From Lysobacter niastensis (GTDB taxonomy: Bacteria > Pseudomonadota > Gammaproteobacteria > Xanthomonadales > Xanthomonadaceae): DNA of 64,000 bases. Position 1 is the stretch's first letter. Each line of letters starts with the position of its first letter. A program made the position numbers and the translations under genes. Shown piece after piece: positions 10,831 through 20,464 of the stretch. The notes beneath the pieces are model-generated. The model saw nothing but the letters and a program-made list of their open reading frames with translations. It did no database searches and had not been told where the DNA came from. The stretch covers positions 1 to 64,000 of the forward strand of contig NZ_JADLZT010000007.1 in assembly GCF_015453285.1 (NCBI RefSeq). The letters run 5' to 3'.

Positions 10831-11574
10831 TCAGGTGTCGGCGAGCACCGGTTCGCCGCCACGCCCCTTCACGCCCCAGTTGAGGATCGGCGTGCCTTCG
10901 GGCAGCACTCTCTCGAACATCGCCACGCGGCTGCGCTTGGGATTGACCACCACCGGATGACGCGCCGCTTTCAATAGCGGCAGGTCGGCGCTGCTGTCGG
11001 AGTACGCCACCTCGATCTGGTCGTAGCCGGCGTCCCAGATCATCCGCATCTTGTTCTGGTGGTGGCAGTGCTCGGTCGTGATCATGCCCCCCAGGAACGG
11101 CCCGCCCAGGCTGCCGATGACCGGCAGGTCCTGGTGCGCGACGAAGTCGAGGATGGCGCGGGCCAGTTCGGGCGAAGCACCGGTGGCGATGATCACGCGG
11201 TCGCCGGCATCGCGGTGGCGCTGCAGCACCTTCAGGGCCACCGGCAACAGGCGCCTGCGGATCTGGTCGGCATGCAGCTGCACGTACCGGTCGATGAGCC
11301 GGTCCATGTCGCGGCGCCGGTGCGTGCCGACCGTGCCGATCCACAGATAGCCAGAAATCGCGTACCTGCGCGTCGGCAGCCACGCGATCATCGGCAGCAG
11401 CAGCGGCGACAGCAGCAACGCGGCCGCCTGGCGCGCCCAGTGGCGCTGGATCAGCCACAGCACCAGATGACTGCCCGAGTCGCCGTTGTAGAGCGTGTGG
11501 TCGAAGTCGAAGACCACCAGCGGCCTGTAGGGCCTGGAGCCGTCGAGAGGCGCCACCCAGGTCCTCTTGCTCAT
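10831..11574 (-). CDS. HAD-IB family phosphatase
   Basis: A 247-residue haloacid-dehalogenase superfamily hydrolase of the phosphoserine-phosphatase-like IB subgroup. Motif I is [12 protein letters not shown] (nucleophile is the first Asp), motif II lies at IIATGAS, and motifs III/IV are seen as Lys-containing NKMRMIW and [12 protein letters not shown] hydrophobic cap segment ([16 protein letters not shown]) could be membrane-associated. The start codon overlaps the trpC stop by 4 bases, so it belongs to the trpGDC transcript. Enzymes of this type often act on phosphoserine, homoserine phosphate or lysophospholipid-like substrates; the substrate here is unknown. Confidence 0.85.
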
Positions 11575-12362
11575 GCAGAAAACATCCGTCGCAGCGCCGC
11601 GCCGGGATCGGCCTCGCGCATGAAGGACTCGCCGATCAGGAAGGTCTCGACGCCGGCGGCACGCATCGTCGCGACGTCTGCGCGTGTGGCGATGCCGCTT
11701 TCGGTGACCAGGGTGCGATCGCGCGGCACCGCATCCTTCAGTGTCAACGTAGTGTCCAGCGACACCTCGAAACTGCGCAGGTTGCGGTTATTGACGCCGA
11801 TCAGCTCGCAGTCGGTCTGCAGCGCCCGTTCCAGTTCGTCGATGTCGTGCACCTCGACCAGCACGTCCATGCCCAACTCCATCGCCAGGTTGGCCATCTC
11901 CACCAGCGGGCCGTCCTCCAGCGCGGCGACGATCAGCAGGATGCAGTCGGCGCCGATCACGCGCGCCTCGTAGACCTGGTAAGGATCGATCGTGAAGTCC
12001 TTGCGCAGCACCGGCAACGAGCAGGCACCACGCGCCTCGCCCAGGTACAGGTTGCTGCCCTGGAAAAAGTCGACGTCGGTCAGTACCGACAGGCAGGCGG
12101 CGCCGCCGGCTTCGTAGCTGCGGGCGATCTCCGCGGGATTGAAGTCCTTGCGGATCAGGCCCTTCGACGGGCTCGCCTTCTTCACTTCCGCGATGACGGC
12201 AGGGCCTCCTTCGGCGTGCTTGCGGCGGATCGCTTCGACGAAGCCGCGCGCTGGCGGCTGCTGCGTCGCGCGGGAGCGCAGGTCGGCCAGCGTTCGTACG
12301 CGGCTGCGCTGTTCGATCTCCTCGGCCTTGCGGGCGAGGATGCGGTTGAGGATGTCGCTCAT
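11571..12362 (-). CDS. trpC: indole-3-glycerol phosphate synthase
   Basis: A 263-residue TIM-barrel enzyme converting 1-(2-carboxyphenylamino)-1-deoxyribulose 5-phosphate to indole-3-glycerol phosphate, the fourth step of tryptophan synthesis. Landmarks: N-terminal [16 protein letters not shown], the catalytic strand [56 protein letters not shown] and [11 protein letters not shown]. It is a monofunctional TrpC without TrpF fusion. It lies third after trpG and trpD, separated from trpD by the small ABM-domain gene, with only 2 bases between that gene's stop and this ATG. Confidence 0.97.
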
Positions 12363-12364
12363 GC

Positions 12365-12721
12365 TCAGGTGCTGGTTTGTTTGCTGTTCGCGGGCTTGCC
12401 ATAAGCCCGTTCGACCTTGGCTACGCGCAATTCGTAGTGCTGGTACCAATGGGCGCGCCCGTAGGCGCGGGTGGCGGCATGCTCGGCATGCTGGCGCCAG
12501 GCGGCGATCGCCTCCTCGCTTTCCCAGTACGACACGGTGATGCCGAAGCCATCCGCGCCGCGCGTGGATTCCACGCCGAGGAAGCCCGGCTGTTGCGACG
12601 CAAGTTCGACCATGTGATCGGCGGCCTGCGCGTAACCGGCATCGTCCTCGCCATTGCGCTGCGAAGCGAAGATCACCGCGTAGTAGGGAGGCTGCGGCGT
12701 GCGGGCGAAGGCATCGTTCAC
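12365..12721 (-). CDS. antibiotic-biosynthesis-monooxygenase (ABM) fold protein inside the trp operon
   Basis: A 118-residue ferredoxin-like alpha/beta barrel protein of the ABM superfamily. The family pattern is visible as [10 protein letters not shown]...[16 protein letters not shown] and the C-terminal [21 protein letters not shown] proteins include cofactor-free monooxygenases, heme-degrading enzymes and many with unknown function; no heme-ligand motif is evident. It sits between trpD and trpC with 1 and 2 base gaps, so it is certainly co-transcribed and probably translationally coupled. A role in handling indole or anthranilate intermediates is a guess from location only. Confidence 0.87.
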
Positions 12722-12722
12722 T

Positions 12723-13763
12723 TCATGCCTCCACCACGGCCAGCTGGCGCGTCATCGCGACGAACTCTTCCAGCTTCGCCAGGGCGGCACCGGACGCCAG
12801 CGCGGCACGCGCGCGGTCGATGCCCTCGGCAATGCTGTCAGCGACGCCTGCCACGTAGATCGCCGCGCCGGCGTTCATCGCCACGATCTCGCGCGGCAGG
12901 CCGGGCTCGTTGCGCAGCGCCTGCAACACCAGCGCCTTCGACTCGATCGCGTCGTTGACGCGCAGGTTGCGGCTGGCGGCCATGGCGATGCCGAAATCCT
13001 CCGGGTGCACTTCGTACTCGCGCACCGTGCCATCTCGCAATTCGCCCACCAGGCTGCCGGCACCGAGCGACAGCTCGTCCATGCCATCGCGGCCCCACAC
13101 GACCAGCGCGCGTTCGGCGCCGAGCTCCTGCAGCACGCGCACCTGGATGCCGACCAGGTCGGGATGGAACACGCCCATCAGGATGCTCGATGCGCCCGCG
13201 GGGTTGGTCAGCGGGCCGAGGATGTTGAAGATCGTGCGCACGGCCATCTCGCGGCGCACCGGTGCGACCACCTTCATCGCCGGGTGATGCACCGGCGCGA
13301 ACATGAAGCCGATGCCGCAGCCGTCGATGCAGCGTGCGACCTGCTCCGGCGCCAGGTCGATCTGCGCGCCGAGCGCCTCGAGCACGTCGGCGCTGCCGGA
13401 CTTCGACGACACGCTGCGGTTGCCATGCTTGGCGACTTTGGCGCCCGCAGCGGCCACCACGAACATGCTGGCGGTGGAGATGTTGAACGTATGCGCGCCG
13501 TCGCCACCGGTGCCGACGATATCGACCAGGTGCGTGCGGTCGGCAACCTCGACCGGGCGCGCGAACTCGCGCAGCACCGTCGCCGCGCCGGCGATCTCGC
13601 CGACGGTCTCCTTCTTCACACGCAGGCCGGTGAGGATCGCCGCGGTCATCGTCGGCGACACCTCGCCGCGCATCACCATGCGCATCAGGTCGACCATTTC
13701 GTCGTGGAATATCTCGCGATGCTCGATCGTGCGCTGCAACGCTTCTTGCGGAGTGATGGGCAT
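12723..13763 (-). CDS. trpD: anthranilate phosphoribosyltransferase
   Basis: A 346-residue enzyme attaching phosphoribose from PRPP to anthranilate, the second step of tryptophan synthesis. The signature segment [18 protein letters not shown] binds [25 protein letters not shown] and [10 protein letters not shown] are further family motifs. It is a monofunctional protein without a TrpG glutaminase fusion. It follows trpG by 7 bases and precedes the ABM gene by 1 base. Confidence 0.97.
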
Positions 13764-13770
13764 GGCCGTG

Positions 13771-14349
13771 TCAACGCTCCAGGAAGTTCTTCAACAGCGC
13801 GTGGCCGTGCTCGGTGAGGATCGATTCGGGATGGAACTGCACGCCCTCGACCGGGTGCTCGCGGTGGCGCAGGCCCATGATCTCATCGAACGAACCATCC
13901 TCGTGGTCGGTCCACGCGGTGATCTCCAGGCATTCCGGCAGTGTCTCGCGCGAGACCACCAGCGAGTGGTAGCGGGTGGCCTCGTAGCCGTCGGGCAATC
14001 CGGCGAACACGCCTTTGCCTTCATGGCGGATGCGCGAGGTCTTGCCGTGCATGATGGTCTTCGCGCGCACGACGTCGCCGCCGTAGGCCTGTCCCAGGCT
14101 CTGGTGGCCCAGGCACACGCCGAACATCGGAATGCGCTGGCCCAGTTGCCGGATCGCCTCGACCGAAACGCCGGCCTCGTTCGGCGTACACGGCCCCGGC
14201 GAGATGACGATGCGCTCCGGCGCCAGCGCTTCGATCTGCGCCAGCGTCAGTTCGTCGTTGCGCACGACCTTCACTTCCGCGCCCAGTGCCTGCAGGTACT
14301 GCACGAGGTTGTAGGTGAAGGAGTCGTAGTTGTCGATCATCAACAGCAT
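13771..14349 (-). CDS. trpG: anthranilate synthase component II (glutamine amidotransferase)
   Basis: A 192-residue class-I glutamine amidotransferase that supplies ammonia to TrpE; in many bacteria it also serves aminodeoxychorismate synthase. The oxyanion and nucleophile region is seen as [13 protein letters not shown] and [16 protein letters not shown] (catalytic Cys in GVCLGHQ), and the His-Glu pair lies in [14 protein letters not shown]. First structural gene of the trpGDC operon. About 300 bases of leader separate its ATG from the leader peptide start at 14652. The partner trpE is ~4 kb away with its own related leader. Confidence 0.97.
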
Positions 14350-14523
14350 GGGAGCGGACTCGCTGGATGGCGCCGGACGGCTGCGCGCGGCACGGGCGGC
14401 ATCGTGGAGGCGTGATTATCCCGCCTCGGACCGTGCCGGGGGGAGGATGGAGATCGTGTTTCGAGGATCAGGTGCCGCGGGATGCGGCCGTGGACGGCCG
14501 GAACGGGACCAGGACGAGCGGGA

Positions 14524-14652
14524 TCAGTGGGGCACGCAGGGTTCACGCAGGGATTCCTTGGAGGACGACGAGGCAGGACGGACGGCGGCCAGCGGCCACC
14601 ATCGCCAACCCAGGTCGGCTGCAAGGAATTGCGGGGTCGTACGCACGATCAT
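14524..14652 (-). CDS. trp leader peptide upstream of trpGDC (Trp-Arg-Trp-Trp)
   Basis: A 42-codon frame starts MIVRTTPQFLAADLGWRWWP and ends two bases before a TGATCC. Three Trp codons fall within four positions (residues 16, 18, 19), the hallmark of an attenuation leader peptide. The ATG lies 6 bases after TAAAGT, a plausible -10 box, so the message may be leaderless; no Shine-Dalgarno is visible. The frame, its start context and its C-terminal SSKESLR are shared with the frame upstream of trpE. About 190 non-coding bases follow before trpG; they contain a GC palindrome but no U-run terminator. Confidence 0.75.
   Translation of the reverse strand: MIVRTTPQFLAADLGWRWWPLAAVRPASSSSKESLREPCVPH
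14553..14629 (-). promoter_or_regulatory. trpGDC leader RNA fold: Trp-codon hairpin and long-range pairing
   Basis: Within the leader peptide gene, the left arm GATGGTGGCC (two Trp codons inside) pairs with GGCCGCCGTC over a 3-base loop, giving a 10-base-pair stem at 14581-14603 with two G-U pairs. Outside it, ATTCCTTG (14622-14629) is exactly complementary to CAAGGAAT (14553-14560), making an enclosing stem. The same two stems can be drawn upstream of trpE. A ribosome stalled on the Trp codons would cover the left arm of the inner hairpin. Confidence 0.6.
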
Positions 14653-14719
14653 GGCCCTACTTTAGCGGCTCGGCGGCGGCGGCGCGACCGTTGCGGACGC
14701 AACGGGGCGGAGCGATCGT

Positions 14720-18204: not shown

Positions 18205-19695
18205 TCAGAGGCCCTTCGCCGCTTCCGCGACGGCGCGGAACAGCGCGCGGCCCTTGTTCATCGTTTCGTCCCATTCCTTGACCGGATCGGAGTCGTAGAC
18301 CACGCCGGCGCCGGCCTGGACGTACAGCCGGCCGTCCTGGATGACAGCAGTGCGGATGGCGATGGCGGTGTCCGCGTCCCCGTTCCAGCCCAGGTAGCCG
18401 ATGCTGCCGGCGTAGACGTTGCGGCGGATCGGTTCGAGTTCGCGGATCACTTCCAGCGCGCGGATCTTCGGTGCGCCACTGACGGTACCTGCGGGGAACG
18501 TGGCGCGCAGCACGTCGGCATAGCTCAGCCCGGGCTTCAGCGTGCCGGTGACCTCGCTGACGATGTGCATGACGTGGCTGTAGCGCTCGATGACGAACTG
18601 CTCGCCGACTTCGACCGTGCCAGGCTCGGACACGCGGCCGACGTCGTTGCGCCCGAGGTCGATCAGCATCAGGTGCTCGGCGCGCTCCTTGGGATCGGCC
18701 AGCAGTTCGGCTTCCAGCGCGGCGTCCTCTTCGGGCGTGGCGCCGCGTGGACGGGTGCCGGCGATCGGGCGCACGGTGACGTGGCCGTCCTCCAGTCGCA
18801 CCAGGATTTCCGGCGAACTGCCGACCACCTGCGTATCGCCGACGTCGAGGAAGTACATGTAGGGCGACGGATTCAACGCGCGCAATGCGCGGTAGACGTC
18901 GACCGGCCGCGCCTTGAACGGCACCGACAGGCGCTGGCTCAGCACCACCTGGAAGATGTCGCCGGCGCGGATGTAGTCCTTCGACTTCTCCACCGCAGCG
19001 ATGAAGCCCTCGCGGGTGAAGCCGGAAACGAAGTCGGTTTCGTCCAGCACGCGCCCTTCCAGCGTCTCCGGATAGCCCGGCCCGCCCTGGCGCAGGCGGT
19101 GCACCAGTTCGTCGAGGCGGCGGTTGGCGCGGGCCAGGGCGCGCGGCTCGCTCGGGTCGGCATGGACGATCAGGTACAGGCGGCCCTTGAGGTTGTCGAA
19201 CACCGCCAGCTCGTCGCTCTGCATCAGCAGGATGTCGGGCGTGCCCAGTTCGTCGGGCTTGTGCGTGCCGTCCGGCTGCGGACCGGCCAGGCGCGGCTCG
19301 ATGTACTGGATGCATTCGAAGCCGAACCAGCCGACCAGGCCACCGGTGAACCCCGGCAGGCCGGGGATCTTCGGCACGCTGTGCTCGGCGCGCAGGCGCT
19401 CGACCTCGGCGAACGGATCCTCGACCGTGCGGGTCTCGACCAGTTCGCCTTCCTCGGCAACGAACAGCGTGTGCCCGGCGAAGGCGTACACGCGCCGCGC
19501 CGGCAGGCCGATGATCGAGTAACGGCCGAAACGCTCGCCGCCTTCGACCGATTCGAACAGATAGGTGTGCGGGCCGTCGGCAAGCTTCAGGTAAACCGAC
19601 AGCGGCGTGTCGAGATCGGACAGCACCTCGCGTACGACGGGAATGCGGGTGTGGCCGTCAGCGGCCTGCTGCTGGAACTGTTCGGGAGAGGTCAC
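18205..19695 (-). CDS. trpE: anthranilate synthase component I
   Basis: A 496-residue chorismate-utilising enzyme making anthranilate with TrpG. Landmarks: the N-terminal feedback domain with [17 protein letters not shown] (Trp-binding LxExxx..S region), and the catalytic domain with [52 protein letters not shown] and [22 protein letters not shown] at 19695 is chosen as start: AAGGA lies 8 bases upstream, and the protein then begins [13 protein letters not shown] as in relatives. An upstream in-frame ATG at 19773 would run through the leader region and lacks family support. The ribosome-binding site is part of the conserved leader pairing described separately. Confidence 0.96.
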
Positions 19696-19801
19696 GCAAA
19701 GATTCCTTGGAAGACGGATGGGAACGGACGATGGCGGCCGAGGGTCGCCATCGCCGGTTCGTGCCAGCAGCAAGGAAGCGCGGATGTGCGGGGCGTGTCA
19801 T
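19658..19801 (-). CDS. putative trp leader peptide overlapping the trpE start
   Basis: A 47-codon frame starts [20 protein letters not shown], contains one Trp (residue 18), continues through the trpE ribosome-binding site with SSKESLR, and stops 35 bases inside trpE in another frame. It is clearly related to the three-Trp leader before trpGDC (shared RW-P-AA-VR and SSKESLR, identical start context CGCTAAAGTAGG). The ATG is 6 bases after TAAAGT, with TTCGCC 17 bases before that, a weak promoter match. With a single Trp codon its sensitivity to tryptophan may be lower. Confidence 0.6.
19703..19777 (-). promoter_or_regulatory. trpE leader RNA fold sequestering the Shine-Dalgarno
   Basis: TTCCTTG (19771-19777) is exactly complementary to CAAGGAA (19703-19709), which includes the trpE Shine-Dalgarno AAGGA. 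Nested inside is a perfect 8-base-pair hairpin CGATGGCG/CGCCATCG (19729-19753, 9-base loop) whose left arm carries the only Trp codon. Folding both stems would hide the trpE ribosome-binding site. The same arrangement is conserved upstream of trpG. Confidence 0.6.
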
Positions 19802-19990
19802 GGGCCTACTTTAGCGGCTGCCGCGCAGCGGGCGAAGCCAGGCGTCACACGGGCGTCATGATCGGTCCGGATCATGGAAGGCCATTGCAGGGACGATTGG
19901 CGGAGGCGGGATTGCCTCCAATATTCCGCGGCAAGCCAGCGATGGCTTGCCGCTTCGCTTTCCGGCCGCAGCCTCCAGCCGGTGGCGCCG

Positions 19991-20464
19991 TTAGCGCAGA
20001 TCGGTATCCGCCAACACCACGCCATCCTCGTCGGCGCACAGCCAGTCTCCGGGGCGGATGCGCACGCCCCCGAACTCGACATCGACGTCGCGCTCGCCCA
20101 GGCCGAGCTTGTCGGTCTTGCGCGGGCATGTGCCCAGCGCCTTGACGCCGAAGTCGAGCGCGCCGATCGCGCCGCAGTCGCGGATCGCGCCGAACACCAC
20201 CACGCCGCACCAGCCGTTCTCCACGGCCTGCGCGGCGAGCATGTCGCCGAGCATCGCGCGCCGCATCGAGCCGCCGCCGTCGATCACCAGCACGCGGCCC
20301 TGGCCGGGTTCGGCCACCGCTTCGCGCACCAGCGAGTTGTCCTCGAACGCGCGGATCGTGCTGACCATGCCGTTGAACGCCAGGCGCCCGCCGAAGTCGA
20401 CCAGCGGCAGGTCGAGCACACGGACCTGTGCATCATGCAGATCGCACAGGTCGCAGGTCCTCAT
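19991..20464 (-). CDS. rraA: RraA-family protein (RNase E regulator / 4-hydroxy-4-methyl-2-oxoglutarate aldolase fold)
   Basis: A 157-residue protein matching RraA, which in E. coli binds RNase E and inhibits mRNA decay; homologues with a metal site are HMG aldolases. Visible: [16 protein letters not shown], the [15 protein letters not shown] segment, the glycine-rich [18 protein letters not shown], and [15 protein letters not shown] followed by a short [12 protein letters not shown]. The start is ATG at 20464, overlapping the rpe stop by 4 bases. A longer frame runs back through rpe but is not coding there. Last gene of a J-domain protein-rpe-rraA operon. Confidence 0.92.

Follow-up and report, generated by a model that had tools for sequence, protein, structure and literature searches.

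The gene trpE of Lysobacter niastensis, coding for component I of anthranilate synthase, is overlapped at its start by a short reading frame with a Trp codon, and a comparison of this leader with its counterparts in the Xanthomonadaceae suggests that it is a tryptophan-responsive translational attenuator, a reading that we consider fairly likely, the response to tryptophan being read from the anatomy of the leader. The window analysed here comprises 64,000 nucleotides (positions 1 to 64,000 of contig NZ_JADLZT010000007.1, assembly GCF_015453285.1), and all coordinates refer to it. Three properties stand out from the comparison: the Trp codons are conserved, a pairing between the trpE Shine-Dalgarno sequence (SD) and an upstream anti-SD arm co-evolves, and the frame of the leader relative to trpE is constant.

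According to the proposed mechanism, the message would begin at or beside the leader ATG, and the leader would be translated as a leaderless open reading frame (ORF). With tryptophan plentiful, ribosomes would pass the Trp codons and cross the trpE start in another frame, while the leaders of a minority of species would release them shortly behind the Trp codons; between ribosomes, the 5′ part of the leader would pair with the trpE SD and trpE would not be initiated. With charged tRNA-Trp scarce, a ribosome would wait at the Trp codons and cover or open the 5′ side of the structure, by which the SD some 40 nt downstream would be freed and trpE translated. A second copy before trpG is probably the same switch, acting on a bridging ORF that would hand ribosomes on to trpG, and the presence of copies at both genes would therefore imply joint control of the two anthranilate synthase subunits. 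The start of transcription, the translation of the leader, the stalling and the direction of the response are what we infer from these sequences.

The leader of trpE

The leader and its elements are the following:

18205..19695, minus strand: trpE, anthranilate synthase component I, GTG start at 19695 (Pfam PF00425, PF04715)
19658..19801, minus strand: trpE leader ORF of 47 amino acids, ATG at 19801, stop codon at 19660-19658, probably leaderless (sequence, family comparison)
19808..19813, minus strand: -10-like box TAAAGT of the putative trpE promoter (sequence and TAnnnT spacing in relatives)
19771..19777, minus strand: anti-SD arm TTCCTTG, 5′ arm of helix P1 (sequence, folding, covariation)
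19703..19709, minus strand: CAAGGAA, 3′ arm of P1, containing the trpE SD AAGGA 8 nt before the GTG (sequence, folding, covariation)
19746..19753, minus strand: 5′ arm of the nested hairpin P2, CGATGGCG (sequence, folding)
19729..19736, minus strand: 3′ arm of P2, CGCCATCG (sequence, folding)
19748..19750, minus strand: single Trp codon TGG of the leader (sequence)
19666..19675, minus strand: CCAGCAGCAG inside trpE, pairing with 19773-19764 (TTGCTGCTGG) and thereby a predicted competitor of P1 once transcribed (folding)

The initial annotation, made from this sequence alone, had pointed to the complementarity of TTCCTTG with CAAGGAA at the trpE ribosome-binding site, to the location of the sole Trp codon in an arm of a nested perfect hairpin, and to the overlap of the leader frame with the trpE start. 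All three observations are borne out: the arms of P1 form a perfect 7-bp complement at the coordinates given, P2 is perfect over 8 bp and contains the only Trp codon of the leader (19750-19748), and the leader overlaps trpE by 38 nt in a different frame. Six nucleotides separate the box TAAAGT from the leader ATG. Absent from that first reading were the probable leaderless start, the second copy before trpG, the multiple Trp codons in relatives and the competing pairing with trpE codons.

Conservation of the leader in the Xanthomonadaceae

Loci of trpE were taken from 154 whole genomes of the family, comprising 12 genomes of the genus, 22 more and 120 regions (loci and genomes are numbered with L and G, respectively). 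Of the 197 sampled family genomes, 184 contain a match to trpE with an E value of 1e-150 or below, and the 154-locus set, from which the most distant matches were left out, is weighted to nearer relatives; pabB-like paralogues (L002, L014-L024) were excluded ahead of counting. As a leader start was called only with a TAnnnT box 4-10 nt upstream, the spacing figures are conditional on this box. A W-R-W-type leader following such a box was called in 124 of the 154 loci, with a spacing between box and start of 6-10 nt (6 or 7 nt in 111 of the 124), the background rate of TAnnnT 6-7 nt upstream being 0.0009 at flanking positions. Since transcription starts about 7 nt past a -10 box, this spacing would place the 5′ end of the mRNA at the leader start codon, and the trpE leader is probably leaderless, with transcription starting at or beside its ATG.

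Frequencies are taken from the 124 of 154 loci. A further set of 136 rows contains the named loci, with possible repeats of species, and two loci of other lineages (L086, L092) were removed from it. In this set 121 leaders pass the trpE start and 15 stop early; removal of near-duplicates (similarity 0.93 or more) leaves a non-redundant set of 93, i.e., 81 run-through and 12 early-stop leaders. The run-through form is found in Stenotrophomonas tumulicola, S. pennii, S. koreensis, Xanthomonas sp. GPE 39, Pseudoxanthomonas and Luteimonas weifangensis, and the early-stop form in the named Lysobacter loci. Two to four Trp codons are present in 116 of the 121 run-through leaders and a single one in five (the window, L001, as well as L009, L011, L012 and L025); from the leader in the window, the first Trp codon has been lost and one remains. 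The five single-Trp leaders belong to four genomes of the window's genus and to G062, and in all five there is a trpG copy with three Trp codons.

The distance between the second Trp codon and the trpE start takes ten different values from 49 to 85 nt among 112 run-through leaders, and it is 1 mod 3 in 111 of these leaders and in nine of the ten distinct values. Frame 0 would fuse the leader to TrpE, and frame 2 would stop it on the TGA of the GTGA, TTGA or ATGA found at the trpE start in 94 of the 112, a leader stop on the target start being the usual arrangement in translational coupling. The one exception to the frame, L025, has GTGT at the trpE start, so that its leader likewise reads on. 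Run-through leaders stop at trpE +35 in 79 of the 112, and in 12 of the 124 called leaders the stop lies 41-58 nt ahead of trpE, shortly after the Trp codons.

A codon alignment was made of 80 of the 81 non-redundant run-through leaders (L025, being in the other frame, was left out). Codons of the W-R-W motif are changed at 2 of 351 sites in 39 disjoint pairs. Elsewhere, changed codons comprise 46 synonymous versus 128 nonsynonymous ones before the Trp cluster and 43 versus 124 after it, and changes are spread over the three codon positions (69/93/89 before the cluster and 65/83/79 after it). Other reading frames give similar ratios of synonymous to nonsynonymous change, so that any trace of selection on the peptide is weak at most. 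What appears to be conserved is thus the path of the ribosome and not the peptide, apart from W-R-W. An ORF with sensor codons can accordingly be recognised across these loci from the W-R-W motif together with the conserved frame.

Co-evolution of the SD and its complementary arm

In 70 of the 81 non-redundant run-through leaders, the 5′ segment and the SD are joined by a helix with six or more pairs, G-U pairs being counted, and the same search found no helix at all in four of the 81. The mean helix score is 17.0 as compared to 10.1 after codon shuffling and 13.6 after swapping of arms, and the mean probability that the SD is paired with the 5′ segment is 0.73 in the intact leaders versus 0.34 after shuffling of the leader codons (n = 81). 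Flanks of the helix change together in a clade-specific manner, as in TTCCTTG/CAAGGAA, TCCCTG/CAGGGA, GCATTTCC/GGAAATGC, CAGTTCC/GGAACTG, GTTTCC/GGAAAC, TTCCTTCCG/CGGAAGGAA and others. When arms were exchanged between representatives, clustered at 80-90% identity on the sequence outside the arms, cognate arms scored 17.1 and non-cognate arms 12.8-13.3; the permutation z is 7.2, 8.2 and 8.7 with 34, 47 and 61 representatives, respectively, and the observed sum was reached by none of 20,000 permutations, although these z values overstate independence and thereby weigh against too strong a reading, as the representatives are related and not phylogenetically independent. In control windows shifted by -40, -35 and -30, cognate arms score lower than non-cognate arms, and in a window shifted by +10 they score somewhat higher (14.5 versus 13.2, 34 representatives).

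An alignment of 20 leaders in a single register comprises ten trpE and ten trpG leaders, of which 18 are from the genus and two (L025 and L280) from genus g52; L004 (no leader), L008 and L013 (early stop) and L264 were left out. It contains 12 double-changed cells, as opposed to 4.2 in shuffles (none of 500 reaches this number) and 0-6 in slid registers, and 77% of its cells are paired, as opposed to 71% in shuffles and 21-43% in slid registers. For example, the column pair 18-98 is GC in eight leaders, UA in six, AU in two and GU in one. The three inner P1 pairs of the window are gapped or unpaired in most of the other aligned leaders. RNAalifold recovers five of the eleven helix pairs unaided from this alignment, and from a peptide-guided alignment of 80 leaders a five-pair hairpin only.

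Thus, the trpE SD and the anti-SD arm co-evolve in the family, and pairing of the target SD with leader RNA is found across it. The initial annotation had proposed covariation analysis with R-scape over Xanthomonadaceae leaders, and covariation is indeed present, as judged by arm swapping and pair counts, not by R-scape. In a model of the 81 leaders, the SD is free with a probability of 0.24 when the leader is intact and of 0.52 when everything through the 14th nt after the first Trp column is deleted; since the deletion removes the pairing arm, part of this gain is built in, and the modelling suggests no more than that the SD is closed less well by any remaining part of the RNA. The sense of the change is the one that the mechanism requires, in which starvation would open the SD.

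A second leader and a bridging ORF before trpG

A second copy of the leader lies in the same window, upstream of trpG:

14659..14664, minus strand: -10-like box TAAAGT (sequence)
14524..14652, minus strand: second leader ORF of 42 amino acids, ...GWRWWP... (sequence, comparison)
14622..14629, minus strand: anti-SD arm of the second leader, ATTCCTTG (sequence, swap test, folding)
14553..14560, minus strand: SD arm of the second leader, CAAGGAAT (sequence, swap test, folding)
14340..14546, minus strand: bridging ORF2 of 68 amino acids, GTG at 14546, TGA at 14342-14340 in the trpG start region (TGATG) (sequence, comparison)
13771..14349, minus strand: trpG, glutamine amidotransferase subunit (Pfam PF00117)
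12723..13763, minus strand: trpD (TIGR01245 over cut-off, Pfam)
11571..12449, minus strand: trpC (Pfam PF00218)

The arms ATTCCTTG and CAAGGAAT form an 8-bp pairing, and the pairing probability of the SD is 0.99 at all ten transcript lengths folded, from +3 to +197. This SD serves the GTG at 14546 that opens ORF2, and the TGA of ORF2 shares its A with the ATG of trpG codon 4. By DNA similarity, the copy is present in 10 of the 12 genus genomes, that of the window included, and no match was obtained in G001 and G010.

The wider trpG sample consists of 69 usable loci out of 70 (30 best hits and 40 hand-picked, and hence non-random, with genus members included; L273, without upstream DNA, was dropped), in which leaders were counted by tblastn. 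A W-rich leader lies upstream of trpG in 22 of the 69, and in 17 of these 22 there is an SD-started ORF2, which ends at trpG +7 in 14 of the 17. Together with the genus loci L258, L263 and L264, ORF2 stops at the same place in trpG in 17 of 20 loci, the exceptions being L285, L300 and L302. From the start of ORF2 to trpG, these 17 loci show twelve distances between 125 and 329 nt, all of which are 2 mod 3, and no conserved ORF2 sequence beyond the start was seen in close relatives, a comparison made with no formal test. The arms of 17 trpG leaders score 16.4 in cognate and 14.1 in swapped combination (z 3.1, p 0.0016). The simplest reading is that the leader probably opens ORF2 and that ORF2 delivers ribosomes to trpG.

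Five loci (L288, L297, L316, L332 and L333) have short leaders of the form ...RWWR-stop with Trp codons 186-229 nt before trpG, behind which no SD-started ORF2 was found; these are perhaps another mode of control.

Distribution in the genomes

A covariance model was built from 30 leaders, the trpE and trpG leaders of the window among them, for which the scores hold by construction. In the genus, 21 of its 22 matches lie before trpE or trpG, and nine of the 12 genomes have exactly two matches, at trpE and trpG. G004 has two trp matches and a weak third one elsewhere (E 0.008), G010 has one match and G001 none. In a sample of the order, searched with stricter filters by which weak matches are lost, matches were obtained in 16 of 121 genomes, 15 of them from the same family and one, weak, from another (G252, E 9e-4). 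The motif TGGCGATGGTGG by itself was rejected as non-specific: with one mismatch allowed, it occurs at 122 forward and 112 reverse positions of its own genome.

Observations weighing against the proposed attenuator

A number of observations count against the interpretation as an attenuator or restrict it. To begin with, chance alone would produce a pairing like that in the window about once in 100 sequences: a Watson-Crick match of seven or longer linking the first 45 nt to the 20 nt upstream of trpE occurs in 48 of 5000 mononucleotide shuffles. The 141-nt fold exceeds its shuffles only modestly, with a z of -1.6 and 16 of 200 shuffles equally good. The persuasive evidence is therefore the comparison with relatives and not the lone sequence of the window.

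In addition, several folding results count against the trpE copy of the window. The probability of the anti-SD:SD pairing is 0.94-0.95 at five transcript ends from trpE +3 to +25 and 0.00 at five ends from +30 to +150, so that SD pairing is found in this copy only in transcripts up to trpE +25. From +30 onwards, TTGCTGCTGG, which overlaps the anti-SD arm, prefers CCAGCAGCAG at equilibrium, with the SD 0.35 unpaired, and the same alternative pairing is seen in L003. P1 can form first during transcription, both of its arms having been made some 35 nt before its competitor, and may then either persist or give way. The Trp codon of the window starts 21 nt past the last anti-SD base, a distance near or beyond the expected edge of the footprint of a stalled ribosome, and a ribosome waiting there may leave the anti-SD arm uncovered. 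Masking a ribosome on the Trp codon raises the openness of the SD at +15 from 0.05 to 0.19 only, with P1 still at 0.67, and gives no gain at +30 (0.32) or +60 (0.34). The trpE copy of the window may, according to these models, be a weaker or altered version of the switch.

Not all tests of covariation were positive. In the 20-leader alignment, two of the five measures are unremarkable: double changes are seen in four pairs, a count reached by 26 of 500 shuffles, and there are seven further pair types, a count reached by 187 of 500. Mutual information between column pairs with average product correction (APC) did not single out P1, where phylogeny and a shifting register of the arms seem to dominate, and it is for this reason that arm swapping and single-register alignment were used. 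P2 is conserved and stronger than with shuffled 3′ arms (20.5 versus 14.2), and it shows no covariation (cognate 20.53 versus non-cognate 20.55, 43 representatives). Early-stop leaders pair less well than run-through leaders, with a probability of 0.39 versus 0.18 in shuffles and a swap rank of 0.37 (n = 12).

Furthermore, no leader was called in 30 of the 154 family loci, including L004 of the same-genus genome G001, in which the trpE SD is kept and the leader is absent, having been lost or replaced by another control. Among these 30 loci, L190 and L208 have the motif and no called start, L185, L143 and L163 have near-miss leaders, and many have no Trp-rich frame whatsoever. Finally, with regard to trpG, nine of ten genus loci (L255-L261, L263 and L264, with L262 as the exception) share a GGGATAAT-type box downstream of ORF2 and ahead of trpG; if this box is a promoter of trpG in its own right, as it may be, the coupling of ORF2 and trpG would be weaker.

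As to the leader-less loci in general, L027, L028, L032, L041, L044, L127 and others have a GGCATACTG-like box near trpE, perhaps a simple promoter. A hairpin GGAGGCAATCCCGCCTCC is present in the window at 19902-19919, followed by a C/T-rich stretch and ATGGCCT before trpE. Related hairpins, followed by a similar stretch and ATGGCCT, occur in L004, L152, L153, L158, L160 and L162, all of which lack the leader and have the hairpin near trpE (GGAAGC/GCTTCC in others; the loop is altered in L160).

Alternative explanations

Closure of the SD might act mainly through Rho-dependent termination inside trpE. As a prediction, this would be a natural consequence of SD sequestration, but since it adds an extra step to the same switch, we regard it as unlikely to be the main output. 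Just as unlikely is that translation of the leader merely opens the trpE start by coupling or unwinding, with no sensing of tryptophan: the leader does overlap trpE, and its translation would melt the pairing, but within the peptide it is the Trp codons that are conserved, the model matches in the genus cluster at trp genes (see above), and in no case among the 124 called leaders does the stop coincide with the trpE start codon, an arrangement that the conserved frame avoids.

Slightly less probable still is classical transcription attenuation, in which the hairpin would act as a terminator and the ribosome on the leader would choose between terminator and antiterminator. A leader with Trp codons adjoining a hairpin is compatible with it, and seven loci of Marinobacter and Microbulbifer do have W-rich leaders stopping 107-135 nt before trpE. 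However, a simple consensus scan of the trpE strand from 19300 to 20100 found no terminator-like site, a search of the window against Rfam at gathering scores returned two tRNAs only and no T-box or known leader family, and hence no attenuator match, and a terminator model does not require a co-evolving SD pairing. The preference of the initial annotation for control at the level of translation over termination is thus supported by these results, and likewise by the conserved Trp codons and leader frame. The leaders in question (Marinobacter L073, L075 and L077; Microbulbifer L078-L080 and L084) end in ...RWWRWRTG-stop or ...SWRWRH-stop and look, by analogy, as would be expected of classical attenuators.

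In TnaC, the nascent peptide itself senses free tryptophan, and the W-R-W-W core of the leader could be conceived as an arrest motif of this kind. Such a mechanism is very improbable here, as the other residues are replaced freely on both sides of the cluster (see above) and five of the 121 run-through leaders have a single Trp; the free change of the peptide outside W-R-W therefore favours the sensing of codons over that of a peptide motif. Least probable of all is that the pairing is a by-product of pyrimidine-rich leader codons matching any purine-rich SD, for although the three core P1 pairs are invariant across the 20 aligned leaders and the match in the single sequence has a chance probability of about 1 in 100, the flanks change together (e.g., GCATTTCC/GGAAATGC) and swapped arms of similar composition pair less well.

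Relation to known systems

The proposed trpE attenuator shares with trpL of Escherichia coli, a classical attenuator, a leader peptide whose Trp codons report the charging of tRNA-Trp, and differs from it in that the simple scan found no terminator, the SD would be the target and the leader overlaps trpE. In attenuators of the ermC/cat type and in SecM, a stalled leader ribosome frees a sequestered SD; unlike in these systems, the signal would be starvation for an amino acid and not a drug or export, and the leader would be leaderless and overlapping. In Bacillus subtilis, the trpE SD is sequestered by TRAP when tryptophan is plentiful, a role that would here fall to the position of the ribosome in place of this protein.

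Closer in design are the short leaderless ORFs of mycobacteria that respond to cysteine (Canestrari 2020, as cited in PMC9031893; earlier speculation in PMC4633059). The citing passages describe leaderless upstream ORFs that contain codons of the amino acid under regulation and control downstream genes, a design that the trpE leader would share. On the basis of these passages, and the differences may be smaller than they suggest, the trpE leader is distinguished by its amino acid, tryptophan, its occurrence in another phylum, the co-evolving anti-SD arm ahead of the sensor codons, the constant frame in which it crosses the start of its target, and the second copy at trpG with its bridging ORF. 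In the LEU element of actinobacterial leuA, as described in PMC1262725, the RNA of a leader ORF also base-pairs with the SD of a biosynthetic gene; however, it is the Leu codons that pair with the SD there and a pseudoknot is present, whereas the pairing arm of the trpE leader lies upstream of the Trp codons, and sensor codons paired with the SD, by which the LEU element is recognised, are not found. The same paper cites evidence from mutation of the Leu codons without effect on regulation and proposes a protein; actinobacterial trp attenuators are also covered there.

In the literature searched, to which most subscription papers did not belong, no description of a Xanthomonadaceae trpE or trpG leader was found. 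In the passages seen of PMC4833913, overlap with the structural gene is excluded by the definition of a leader gene and Xanthomonas is not named, and in those of PMC2965389 Xanthomonas is named for rpsL only. In kind, the trpE leader would be a translational attenuator; to our knowledge it would be new in combining a probable leaderless start with a co-evolving anti-SD arm, a run-over frame and a second copy that has a bridging ORF.

Implications for the family

Attenuation by Trp codons is textbook control by transcription termination. Much of the Xanthomonadaceae, with named loci in Xanthomonas, Stenotrophomonas, Pseudoxanthomonas, Luteimonas and, in the early-stop form, Lysobacter, appears to combine the same sensor, i.e., Trp codons, with another output, namely access to the SD, and another entry, a leaderless start, and the frame rule would prevent a leader stop at the trpE start codon. 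We give about even chances to the wider proposition that the tryptophan regulon of the family is controlled at the level of translation via leaderless leaders, with the trpE start actively overrun in a selected frame and, in some genera, trpG switched from 125-329 nt away by coupling through a bridging ORF of 44-112 codons, the sequence of which is not conserved while its stop/start overlap is kept. If this holds true, the bridging ORF of trpG would represent a translation switch acting at a distance through an ORF indifferent to sequence, and both the trpE and the trpG switch would be open to simple reporter tests.

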